Origin: an uncultured SAR86 cluster bacterium
GTDB lineage: Bacteria; Pseudomonadota; Gammaproteobacteria; Magnimaribacterales; AG-339-G14
Length of the DNA stretch: 64,000 nucleotides
NCBI GenBank assembly: GCA_902523885.1
Contig: CABZAV010000002.1
Location: forward strand, 130,923-194,922
Direction: 5' to 3'
Positions 26,915-33,009 of the stretch are shown one piece after another; within the stretch, counting starts at the first letter, position 1; each line of letters starts with the position of its first letter. Under the pieces are notes generated by a model. The model saw nothing but the letters and a program-made list of their open reading frames with translations. It searched no databases and was not told where the DNA came from. The position numbers and the translations under genes are program-made.

Positions 26915-28954
26915 TTAACTTCTTAGCTTTGCCCCAAATTTGCTTTTTGAGTTTTTTACTATTTTATCGATTGCTGAATCAATATAGCTATCTTCCAATG
27001 TACCTTTGGCTGATTGCCAGGTAAGTCTGAAGGCAAGACTTTTTTGATTTTTCTGCAGATCTCCCCCTTTAAATAAATCAAATAATTTAATATCTATCAA
27101 GTCTTTTCCGGCGTGTTTCGTAATTTCATTGAACAACTCAATATAATCCAATTTTTCAGAAACAATAAAAGCTAAATCTCTTTGCATGGAAGGAAATTTA
27201 GAAGGCTCTACTAATTTTATACTCTTTGAATTAAATAATTCATTTGTTTGAAATTCAAAATAGAAAAAAGGCTTTTTAAAATTTATTGTTTTAAGAATGA
27301 GTGGGTGAACTTTTCCGAAACTTCCTATTTTCTTATTAGCTTTAAAGATATCAGCAGATATTTTAGGATGCAGTAAGTTTGAGCTAGATTTTTTTAATGA
27401 AATGTCTGCAACATTGGAAAACTTAGCTATGTTTAAAGCAAGCTCTTTGAGAGAGTAAAAATCAAATGTGCTAGAACGGTTCCAACTTTTTTTCTCTTGA
27501 TCGAAAATTAAACCAGCTAAATGATTAAGTTCCTTAATCGATTTAATCTTAGAAAAAACCTTCCCTTCTTCATATATTTTCAGGTAATCATTTCCTCTTT
27601 TTGCGTTCGAAATTAGATTGGTTATTAAGCCAGGGAATAAACTAGTTCGCATGGAGTTTAAGTTTTCAGTTATTGGATTTTGAATCTTAATGATTCCTTT
27701 TGAAAGCTCTAATTTTTTTTGTAAGCCGTCATCTATAAATGAATAGTTAATCACTTCTTGAAAATTATTATGAGTAAGGAATTTTTTAAGTTCCAATGTC
27801 TTTGAATAATCAGTTTTTGAAAAATTTTGCTGAGCAGTTTTTAATTCTCTATTTGGTAAGTTGTCATATCCCACCAATCTTGCTATTTCTTCGACAAGAT
27901 CTTCTTGTATTTCCAAATCAAATCTATGACTTGGAGTTAAAATTTTAATCAGGTCAGATTGAACATCAATAATTTCAATATCAAGGTATTGCAAAAGTTG
28001 TTTAATTTTTTTGATTGACAGCTGAGTGCCTATCTTCTGATTCAGAAAATTAACTGAAAGATTAATTTTCTTTTGTTTTGGAAGATCGCTGTTTGAAACT
28101 ATTTCCTTTGCTTTGGTACAACTTCCGCCCAAGTATTTTATTATCAATACACTTGCCATCTCTAAAGCTTTGAGTTGTAAATTGAAATCCACTCCTCTTT
28201 CAAATCTTTGTGAGGCATCAGTCTGAATGCCAAATTTTCTGGCCTTACCTCTGATAAATTTTGGAGCAAAAAAAGCTGATTCCAAAATGACTGCCGAAGT
28301 ATCCATTTCCACTGAAGAATCTTTGCTTCCCATGATGCCAGCAAAAGCAATTGGCCCTTTGGCATCTGTAATTAAAAGACAATCTTTAGATAAGGATATT
28401 GTCTGATCGTCTAGCAAATTTACCTTTTCATTATTTTTAGCAAATCTAACTTTGATATCACCCGAAATTTTATTTTTATCGAATGCATGCATTGGCTGCC
28501 CAATATCAAGCATCACGTAGTTAAGAATATCCACAACTGGATTTATTAAATTAATTCCTGCTGCTTCAAGGCGAGAATTTATTTGCTCAGGCAGCTCTTT
28601 AACTTTTCCTTTCGAATTTGTTAAAGACAAGTTAGATATTTCTAAATAGCTATATTTTGGACAAGCTTCTTTAGCCTGAACTAGAACTTTGGTTTTAGAA
28701 TTTCCCTGCTTTTTTACTGAATACTTTTCTTTTTTTAAGGAAGTTTGATCAGAAGCAGCAATCTCTCTGGCTACTCCAAGCGCACTAAAACAATCGCCAC
28801 GGTTTGGGGTGAGATCAATATCAATACAAAAATCGCTTTTCAGTTTAGCGATAGAATCAACTTCAAGACCTAGCATTGTTAATTGATTGCTCAACTTATC
28901 AACGCTCTTCTTTATGCCTAATTTTTCATCTAAGTGGGATTTTAAAATCTTCAT
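26915..28954 (-). CDS. pheT: Phenylalanyl-tRNA synthetase beta chain, lacking the N-terminal OB domain
   Basis: A 679-residue PheT against 795 in E. coli. The first 37 residues (B1) match, then the chain jumps straight to DLTPNRGDCFSALGVAREIA, so the roughly 113-residue EMAP-II/tRNA-binding OB domain (B2, E. coli residues about 40-151) is absent. The editing region, the motifs PMHAFD and SQRFERGVD, the catalytic-like core and the C-terminal anticodon-binding RNP-like domain (FPSMQRDLAFIV) are present. It starts 1 base after pheS. Frame is intact throughout, so this is not a frameshift. Confidence 0.95.
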   Translation of the reverse strand: MKILKSHLDEKLGIKKSVDKLSNQLTMLGLEVDSIAKLKSDFCIDIDLTPNRGDCFSALGVAREIAASDQTSLKKEKYSVKKQGNSKTKVLVQAKEACPKYSYLEISNLSLTNSKGKVKELPEQINSRLEAAGINLINPVVDILNYVMLDIGQPMHAFDKNKISGDIKVRFAKNNEKVNLLDDQTISLSKDCLLITDAKGPIAFAGIMGSKDSSVEMDTSAVILESAFFAPKFIRGKARKFGIQTDASQRFERGVDFNLQLKALEMASVLIIKYLGGSCTKAKEIVSNSDLPKQKKINLSVNFLNQKIGTQLSIKKIKQLLQYLDIEIIDVQSDLIKILTPSHRFDLEIQEDLVEEIARLVGYDNLPNRELKTAQQNFSKTDYSKTLELKKFLTHNNFQEVINYSFIDDGLQKKLELSKGIIKIQNPITENLNSMRTSLFPGLITNLISNAKRGNDYLKIYEEGKVFSKIKSIKELNHLAGLIFDQEKKSWNRSSTFDFYSLKELALNIAKFSNVADISLKKSSSNLLHPKISADIFKANKKIGSFGKVHPLILKTINFKKPFFYFEFQTNELFNSKSIKLVEPSKFPSMQRDLAFIVSEKLDYIELFNEITKHAGKDLIDIKLFDLFKGGDLQKNQKSLAFRLTWQSAKGTLEDSYIDSAIDKIVKNSKSKFGAKLRS

Positions 28955-28955
28955 T

Positions 28956-29930
28956 TTACGATTGAGAAATTAGCCTTAAATCATTTTCAAATAGCAATCG
29001 CAAGTCATCCATTTGATAATCAAGTTTAGTCATTCTTTCAATTCCCAAACCAAAAGCAAAACCCGAGTATTTTTTTGGATCAACGCCTGCTTCTTTCAGA
29101 ACATTTGGATGCACCATGCCACAGCCCATAATTTCTAACCATCCCTTTTTATCCATAATATCTACTTCCGCAGAAGGTTCTGTAAAAGGAAAATAAGATG
29201 GTCTAAATCTAACCTTGAGTTTTTTACCAAAAAAGTAATTTAAAAATTCCGTTAACTCGTGTTTTAAATTTCCGAAATTTACTTTTTCATCTATTAACAA
29301 TCCTTCGATTTGATGAAACATTGGTGTGTGAGTTTGATCGGCATCACTCCGATAAACTTTTCCAGGGCAGATAATTTTTAATGGTGCTTTGCTTTTAAGA
29401 ATTGATCTTATTTGCACTGGAGAAGTATGTGTTCTTAATAGCATTTCTGCATCAACATAAAACGTATCATGCATATCTCTCGCTGGATGATCTTTGGGTA
29501 TATTTAAAGCGTCAAAATTGAAATATTCGGATTCTATTTCCGGACCGTCTTCGATGGAGTAACCGCGAGAAATAAAATATTGACAGATTTTATCAATGGT
29601 TTTTGTTATCGGATGTAGATTTCCAAGTTTTTCAAATTCAACAGGTAAAGATGTATCAATCGATTCTGTTTCTAAAATTGCATTAATCTCTTGTTGTTCT
29701 ATTTCTTTACTTAGGATTTGACTTTGTTCTTCGAAAAACTTTTTTAGAAGATTAATTGCCTTTCCCGCTTTAGGTCTTTCTGATTGCGAAAGCTTGCCTA
29801 AATCTTTTGATAAGAGAGAAATTCTACCTTTCTTACCTAGATATTTGATCTTTAGGTCTTGAAGGTCTTTTGAGTTTGATGCTTTGTTTAAATCTTTAGA
29901 TAATTGCTTCTTAAGCTGCTGCAGGTCCAT
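28956..29930 (-). CDS. pheS: Phenylalanyl-tRNA synthetase alpha chain
   Basis: A 324-residue class II synthetase subunit (E. coli 327). The N-terminal coiled coil (about residues 1-90) is followed by the catalytic core with motif 2 around FHQIEGLLID and motif 3 GLGIERMTKL; HTSPVQIRSI and FRPSYFPFTEPSAEVD line the Phe site. With PheT it makes the alpha2-beta2 enzyme. It begins 8 bases after rplT. Confidence 0.98.
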   Translation of the reverse strand: MDLQQLKKQLSKDLNKASNSKDLQDLKIKYLGKKGRISLLSKDLGKLSQSERPKAGKAINLLKKFFEEQSQILSKEIEQQEINAILETESIDTSLPVEFEKLGNLHPITKTIDKICQYFISRGYSIEDGPEIESEYFNFDALNIPKDHPARDMHDTFYVDAEMLLRTHTSPVQIRSILKSKAPLKIICPGKVYRSDADQTHTPMFHQIEGLLIDEKVNFGNLKHELTEFLNYFFGKKLKVRFRPSYFPFTEPSAEVDIMDKKGWLEIMGCGMVHPNVLKEAGVDPKKYSGFAFGLGIERMTKLDYQMDDLRLLFENDLRLISQS

Positions 29931-29938
29931 AGCATATA

Positions 29939-30295
29939 TTATGCTGCATTTTCTTTAACTAGTGCGACCAAATCTGCAAATCCTTTTTCATCTTCTGCTG
30001 CCATATCTGCCAAAGCTTTTCTATCCAACTCAATATTTGCTTTTTTCAAAGCATTCATAAAAACACTATACGAAAGACCATTTGCTCTAACCGCAGCATT
30101 AATTCTAACAATCCAAAGAGCGCGAAAATTTCTCTTCTTAACTCTTCTATCCCTATAAGCGTATTGACCGGCTCTAGTGACAGCTTGCTTAGCTACTTTG
30201 AAAGTTCTGCTTCGCGCGCCTCTATAACCTTTTGCAAGTTTAAGAGTTTTCTTATGGCGGGCTTTAGCCGTAACACCTCTTTTTACTCTAGACAT
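29939..30295 (-). CDS. rplT: 50S ribosomal protein L20
   Basis: A 118-residue L20, strongly basic, with the [23 protein letters not shown] start, [13 protein letters not shown] and [20 protein letters not shown]20 is needed for 50S assembly and in enterics represses its own operon by binding the infC-rpmI leader. It comes 1 base after rpmI. Confidence 0.99.
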
Positions 30296-30495: not shown

Positions 30496-31041
30496 TTAAT
30501 TCTTTTTTTTCAATGGGCTTAAAAGCATTACTAATTGCCTTCCTTCAGAAACTGGTTCTTGTTCAACTCCAGCAATTTCGTTGAGGTCAGATTCTACTCT
30601 TTTTAGAAGATTTAAGCCTATTTCTTTGTGTGCTAATTCTCTTCCTCTGAACCTCATAGTGATTTTCGTTTTATCGCCTTCTTTGAGAAATTTAATAATA
30701 TTTCTCATTTTGATTTGATAATCGTTTTCGTCAGTACCTGGTCGAAATTTAATTTCTTTTAGTTGTGTCTTTTTGGTCTTTTTCTTAGAAGCTGCTTTTT
30801 GTTTTTTCTGATCAAATAGATGTTTTCCATAATCCATTAACTTGCAAACTGGCGTTTTAGGATCATCATTCATTTGAACTAAATCTAAACTTGCAGATTT
30901 GGCTTGATCAAGAGCATCGTTAATTTCTACAACTCCAAGTTGCTGACCATCTTCTGAGATAAGTCTTACTTTGGTTGCTTTGATGAATTGATTGATTTGG
31001 TGCTTATTCTTTTTTTCGTAAGCTTTTCTTGGTTGAGCCAT
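30496..31041 (-). CDS. infC: Translation initiation factor IF-3
   Basis: A 181-residue IF-3 that checks start-codon pairing and keeps subunits apart. The N domain has [17 protein letters not shown], then a lysine-rich linker, then the C domain with [14 protein letters not shown] and [13 protein letters not shown] use the ATG at 31041; an in-frame TAA lies 6 bases upstream, so it cannot be longer. It therefore appears to lack the AUU start typical of E. coli infC, unless it begins further inside. No clear ribosome site is seen. It starts 33 bases after the thrS stop. Confidence 0.96.
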
Positions 31042-31074: not shown

Positions 31075-33009
31075 TCAAACCTCCTTTGATTTAATATTCT
31101 TATCCAAAAGTTTCGAAAAATCTTCTAGAGTTAAACTCCCCAAATCCTGACCTTTTCGTGCTCTTACGGAAACAGTATTATTCTCTATCTCTTTATCGCC
31201 CACTACCAACTGAAAAGGAATTCTTTGCATGGAGTGATCGCGGATTTTATAAGTGATTTTCTCATTCCTCAAGTCTAATTTCACTCTAAAGCCCTTGGAT
31301 TTAAGTTTTTTGGCAATTTCTTTGGTATTTTTAGCGTGTTTGTCCGAAATATTCATAATAACGGCCTGAATTGGGGATAACCATAAAGGAAAGTTTCCAT
31401 CATATTCTTCTATAAGAATTCCTATAAATCTTTCAAAAGATCCTAATATTGCCCTATGCATCATTACTGGGCGATGCCTTTCTCCATCTTCGCCAACAAA
31501 GTTAGCCTCTAATCTTTCTGGAAGATTGAAGTCAGCTTGAAAAGTTCCACACTGCCATTCTCTATCTAACGCATCAGTTAAAACAAAATCTAATTTGGGA
31601 CCATAAAATGCCCCATCCCCTTCGGAAACTTCATAGGGAAGGTTTAGTTTTTTTATGGCGTTTTCTAAAGCCGACTCTGCCTTGTCCCAAATTTTGTCGG
31701 ATCCAACCCTTACTTCTGGCCTGGTGGATAATTTTATGTCATATTTTTTAAAGCCCAAATCGCTATAAATTTCAGAAAGCAGATTGATAAAATTTTTAGC
31801 TTCTTCTTCAATTTGGTCTTCTGTACAAAATATATGACCATCATCTTGAGTCATTTGTCTCACTCTCATCAAACCATGAAGAGTTCCTGAAGCTTCATAT
31901 CGGTGACACGATCCAAATTCAGCCAACCTAATCGGCAAATCTCTATAAGATTTAATTCCTTGATTATAAACTTGTACATGGCACGGACAGTTCATTGGCT
32001 TCAAAGCATTGACTCTCTTTTCATTGGCATGCTCTTCGTCAATTTCAGTGATATACATATTTTCTCGATATTTATCCCAATGCCCTGATTTTTCCCAGAG
32101 CTTTCTATCTACTACTTGAGGAGTTTTTATTTCCTGATAACCAGCTTTGATTTGCTTGTCCCTAATATAATCTTCAAGGATTCTAAAAATTGTCCAGCCC
32201 TTTGGATGCCAAAAGACCATGCCTGGTGCTTCCTCCTGAAAATGGAAGAGATCATATTTTTGACCTAATTTTCTATGATCTCTTTTCGAGGCTTCTTCAA
32301 TATTATTTAAGTATTTTTTTAACTCTTTTTCGCTATTCCATGCCGTCCCATAAATTCTTTGCAACATTTTATTTTTTGAATCGCTTCTCCAGTAAGCCCC
32401 TGAAACGTGAGTTAACTTAAAGGCTTTTATATGTGACATTGAATTTACATGCGGTCCTCTACACATATCAATATATTCGTCATGATAGTAGAGTCCAACT
32501 GTTTCTTCTTCTTTGATTTCTTTTAGTATTTCTAATTTATAAATTTCTTTTCTTTCTTTAAAAACTTTTACTGCTTCTTTTTTTGGAACAACTTTTTTTA
32601 TAACTCTATATTTAGTTTTGGCTAGATCTTTCATCCTTTTTTCTATCTTCTCTAAATCTTCCTGAGAAAGTGAATGATCTAAATCGATATCATAATAAAA
32701 ACCGTTTTCAATAATTGGGCCAATTGCCATTTTTGCTTCAGGAAAAATTTGCTTCAAAGCGTGCCCAAATAGGTGGGCGCAACTATGTCTGATAATTTCT
32801 ATGCCTTCTTGGTCTTGGTCTCTGATAATTTCGACCGAACAGTCGCTTTCTAATAAATCAACCGCATCAACTAAATTTCCGTTAACTTTGCCAGCTACAG
32901 TTGCTTTAGCTAAGCCAGCACCAATAGATTTGGACAAATCTTCTACGGAAATAGGATTTTCAAAAGTTTTAATGGAGCTATCAGGAAGAGTAATATTAAT
33001 CATTTTCAT
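31075..33009 (-). CDS. thrS: Threonyl-tRNA synthetase
   Basis: A 644-residue class II synthetase (E. coli 642). It has the N-terminal TGS domain, the editing domain with [10 protein letters not shown], the zinc-site region [10 protein letters not shown] with its Cys, the GSCHRYE motif 2 and a [13 protein letters not shown] segment, and a C-terminal anticodon domain. It opens the thrS-infC-rpmI-rplT-pheS-pheT-ihfA-merR block. A GGCC-GGCC inverted pair sits right before the ATG. Confidence 0.98.

Follow-up and report, generated by a model that had tools for sequence, protein, structure and literature searches.

A bacterial phenylalanyl-tRNA synthetase beta subunit without its B2 OB domain in the SAR86 order

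Results

We consider the pheT gene in a 64,000-nucleotide stretch of DNA from a SAR86 cluster bacterium (the whole stretch is called the window here). The gene (26915..28954, minus strand) encodes a PheRS beta subunit of 679 aa that lacks the B2 OB domain, and the loss of this domain is real, clean and found in every SAR86 family sampled. We give a probability of about 85% to the reading that the protein is an ordinary bacterial PheRS beta from which B2 was precisely deleted early in the SAR86 order or before, that it is a working enzyme as predicted, and that the loss of B2 is one of several in small genomes.

The open reading frame starts with ATG and is unbroken, and four domains score above their Pfam cut-offs (all on the minus strand): the B3/B4 editing domain (residues 117-276, 28127..28606, 196.6 bits, with the editing-site residues kept), B5 (residues 297-363, 27866..28066), the catalytic-like module or CLM (residues 384-569, 27248..27805), and the B8 ferredoxin-fold anticodon-binding domain or FDX-ACB (residues 585-678, 26921..27202). 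The B1 domain (residues 1-66, 28757..28954) is supported by the alignment, by the structural model and by a weak PhetRS_B1 match (21.2 bits, below the cut-off of 26.8); it forms one continuous piece, whereas that of E. coli is made of two pieces flanking B2. The order B1, B3/B4, B5, CLM, B8 is the same as in the bacterial PheRS beta subunits of the TIGR00472 kind (E. coli, P. aeruginosa, T. thermophilus), from which the window PheT differs by the missing B2. This EMAP-II/Trbp-like OB fold of about 113 residues is the sole bacterial PheRS-beta domain absent, and the Pfam scan of the window PheT gives no tRNA_bind domain.

To our knowledge, the archaeal/eukaryotic PheRS beta subunits (TIGR00471) are likewise without the inserted B2 domain. 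The window PheT, however, scores 588.3 bits against the bacterial model TIGR00472 (pheT_bact, curated cut-off 402.65, model positions 156-798 of 798 matched) and 123.9 bits against TIGR00471, short of the curated cut-off of 282.65, and it keeps the C-terminal FDX-ACB. By its sequence the protein is a bacterial PheRS beta subunit, although it is missing B2, which is usual in this family but not essential to it; we keep the assignment because the score passes the TIGR00472 equivalog cut-off and because the remaining domains and the gene order are retained. The pheS gene (PheRS alpha subunit, 324 aa, 28956..29930, minus strand), called from its open reading frame and profile matches, lies directly upstream of pheT, and the minus-strand frames further upstream (29939-30295, 30496-31041, 31075-33009) can be read as rplT, infC and thrS, matching the annotated gene order of E. 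coli K-12. The closest solved relative of the window PheT is that of P. aeruginosa (PDB accession code: 4p71). "Truncated" is the wrong label for the short SAR86 PheT.

In the MAFFT alignment with E. coli PheT, a single residue of the window PheT stands in the place of 111 residues (E. coli 40-150). The flanks of the junction are LEVDSIAKLK / DFCIDIDLTP in the window PheT and LEVDGVEPVA / LKLDDNTIEISVTP in the E. coli protein, so B1 residues 1 to about 39 run straight into the position matching E. coli residue 151. The original prediction, of a clean excision with the frame intact and the other domains present, agrees with the open reading frame, the Pfam scan and the alignment, and the boundaries it gave (37 and 151) are off by no more than two or three positions. 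The join lies at the turn of the B1 hairpin (residues 38-42, 28829..28843, minus strand), which is the insertion site of B2 in full-length PheT.

An AlphaFold2 model of the window PheT (24-row alignment, mean pLDDT 88.3) places a strand at residues 31-38, a two-residue turn and a second strand at residues 41-48, with a pLDDT of about 89 at the join. The B1 beta-hairpin is thus predicted to be closed at residues 31-48, the outcome of the structural check that had been proposed. Compared with E. coli PheT (6oz5_D) by VIA-align, the model is aligned from residue 1 with a Z of 48.1, 667 aligned residues, 34% identity and an rmsd of 21.9; this rmsd is so high that the relative domain placement in the isolated-chain model is unreliable, and the pTM of 0.58 likewise leaves the domain arrangement unsure.

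We turn our attention to the editing function. A 2006 paper by Roy and Ibba is said to call the domain, in its title, dispensable and contributing to editing. The subject of that title is taken to be B2 since PMC5370408 cites the paper for B2. The connection with editing speaks for a reading in which the proofreading of SAR86 PheRS is lost or strongly reduced, the loss of B2 being one mark of a higher rate of mistranslation that the cells tolerate, but we consider this improbable given that the B3/B4 domain is complete and its editing residues are conserved. Out of the E. coli PheT residues that we take to be the editing site (H265, G318, E334, T354, A356), the first three are conserved in 49/49 SAR86 alignment rows (48 distinct genes, L026 and L046 being the identical gene), and the equivalents of T354 and A356 are T or S and A or S. 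Among the other B2-less rows, H265 is found in 14/15 and E334 in 15/15. The loss of B2 is therefore not accompanied by a loss of the editing site, and a decay of that site alongside B2 is rejected.

Alternatively, the OB function may have moved. The only tRNA_bind match in the organism's own genome (88% complete) is a free OB protein of 110 aa encoded directly after metG, its start codon falling 8 bases short of the end of the metG core. The MetRS is split in this way in the SAR86 families f1, f2 and f4 (L001:1489-3274 on contig C5 of the organism's own genome; also L087, L094, L096, L128-L135); in f1 and f4 the OB frame has the same 8-base offset, and in f2 it begins 1-2 bases beyond the metG core. 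Four single-contig SAR86 genomes (G008, G040, G042, G045) have one PF01588 match each, beside metG (L130, L128, L129, L132). With a B2-less PheRS and a MetRS whose domain is unlinked in three of the four sampled families, the free protein could be imagined as a tRNA-handling subunit serving both PheRS and MetRS in trans, and such a shared OB protein would be a miniature bacterial counterpart of yeast Arc1p. We regard this as very unlikely. The free protein adjoins metG and scores as the MetRS C-terminal domain (139 bits against TIGR00399, cut-off 117), and in family f3 (including L093) the OB domain is still fused to MetRS, yet PheT is equally without B2; the MetRS split and the B2 loss are therefore not linked. 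The free OB protein that was suggested as something to look for is thus present, but as the MetRS domain and not as a B2 relocated elsewhere in the genome, a candidate that we reject on the sole match in this 88% complete genome.

Most genomes of genus g17 (family f3) contain a second free OB protein (L136:1063-1401, minus strand, for example). The one that was scanned is of the CsaA or "tRNA-binding protein" kind (164 bits) and is not B2.

The preferred reading, a precise deletion from an ordinary PheRS beta, can be followed through the order. The six named contigs that match the window PheT at 63-97% identity all belong to the SAR86 cluster. In a survey of 116 SAR86 genomes of at least 80% completeness, a PheT match is found in 98, and none of these 98 has a match within TIGR00472 positions 47-134, the B2 region. 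An unbroken pheT frame of 632-699 aa is present in 90 of the 98; left out of this count are three genes broken by stops (G033, G081, G106) and five fragments (G039, G063, G069, G100, G110), the visible parts of which are likewise without positions 47-134. The three broken genes have several stops in frame and come from assemblies of 2-3 contigs; they are probably the result of sequencing indels and not pseudogenes.

Other SAR86 assemblies show the same in-frame junction, in proteins as little as 26% identical to the window PheT, so it is not an error of one assembly. A diverged but unrecognized OB domain, or a gap made by misassembly, is refuted by the flanking B1 strands, which lie 0-5 residues apart in the 49 SAR86 rows from many assemblies and leave no space for an OB domain. 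That B2 absence is a peculiarity of one genome is ruled out as well, for the short form is found in all SAR86 genomes with a testable match. The anatomy that was first described thus stands and its peculiarity does not. What had been named as a refutation, a short form typical of most relatives, applies in part: the gap is shared by the SAR86 genomes with a match (98/98) and recurs in a minority of other Gammaproteobacteria (15/266), all with small genomes.

These other cases come from a class sample of 275 gammaproteobacterial genomes (4 of them SAR86), 270 of which have a PheT match, 266 of these non-SAR86. The 15 non-SAR86 genomes without B2 belong to 11 families and all measure 1.0-2.0 Mb: B2 is absent in 15/62 genomes of up to 2.0 Mb and in 0/204 larger ones (Fisher p 7.7e-11, uncorrected for relatedness). 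Since B2 is kept in the other 47 small genomes, some of only 0.3-0.4 Mb, small size does not force its loss. In this sample, 47 genomes whose matches were weak or split were re-searched; the remaining genomes all matched with E-values near 1e-216 or lower, whereas no B2-less row among the re-searched ones scored above 652 bits (2.6e-196). Among 397 Pseudomonadota genomes sampled and searched with a B1-region model of 130 positions, the window PheT alone is short among the matches listed, the next shortest frame among them being 747 aa (G131, at a contig edge). Both samples bear out the expectation that most relatives outside SAR86 have B2.

To see whether the B2-less proteins form one clade, a PheS+PheT tree was built with the B2 columns removed (76 rows, 19 near-identical SAR86 rows having been omitted beforehand), together with a quick tree of 54 rows from which 22 long, very similar or distant rows were dropped. 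The trees require 7 and 5 changes of B2 state, respectively. A constraint uniting all B2-less rows costs 72.6 log-likelihood units on the 54 of the 76 rows (p-AU 0.0015), and a single B2-less clade is rejected by this AU test. It follows that the loss was probably repeated among small-genome Gammaproteobacteria, as far as these sequences tell; the number of losses is uncertain, because the deep forks are weak and, counting just the starred branches, the required number falls to 1 change (76 rows) or 2 changes (54 rows).

Discussion

Combining these results, we propose that B2 was deleted precisely from an ordinary bacterial PheRS beta, at an early stage of the SAR86 order or before it. B2, an accessory tRNA-binding domain, is a plug-in within the B1 beta-hairpin, so that taking it out leaves the hairpin closed and the enzyme otherwise complete. 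The charging of tRNA-Phe would most likely proceed via the contacts that are still there, namely the coiled coil at the N-terminus of PheS and the anticodon-binding B8, and B3/B4 would still edit, perhaps with a weaker capture of mischarged tRNA. Judging from this anatomy and from the published title, the SAR86 PheRS without B2 probably works, with editing retained or weakened, and its loss of B2 was probably fixed early. As one of several in small-genome Gammaproteobacteria, the loss fits the shedding of a dispensable module, with streamlining as the presumed cause.

A bacterial PheRS without B2 is already known, and SAR86 is a further case. In PMC5370408, the PheRS beta of CPR bacteria is said to be without the B2 OB fold; both proteins are of the bacterial type and are likened here by architecture only, and the window PheT, unlike the CPR case, comes from a free-living marine gammaproteobacterial order. 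M. pneumoniae has been shown to tolerate a PheT split between B1-B2-B1 and B3 (PMC12494982). T. thermophilus PheRS is listed among the OB-fused synthetases in PMC11286949, where Trbp111 is found to recognize primarily tRNA 3' ends. A search of the open-access literature yielded nothing on SAR86 together with phenylalanyl-tRNA synthetase, and among the titles and abstract openings listed in further searches none reports that SAR86 or other Gammaproteobacteria have lost B2.

The SAR86 PheRS shows a real but rather unremarkable reduction, the domain lost having been described earlier as dispensable. Roy and Ibba (2006) are said to call it so for an engineered deletion; in SAR86 the loss is natural, fixed in the whole order and known from sequence. 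SAR86 offers B2-less PheRS enzymes that arose in nature and span an order, alongside other, probably independent cases; with these, no engineered deletion is needed to test the view that B2, though dispensable, helps editing. Outside SAR86, family f91 holds both states (L061 with B2, L101 without). The PheT of a genome in family f162 (L098, G359), one of the 15 without B2, has an Asn/Asp/Glu-rich low-complexity stretch where B2 would be inserted.
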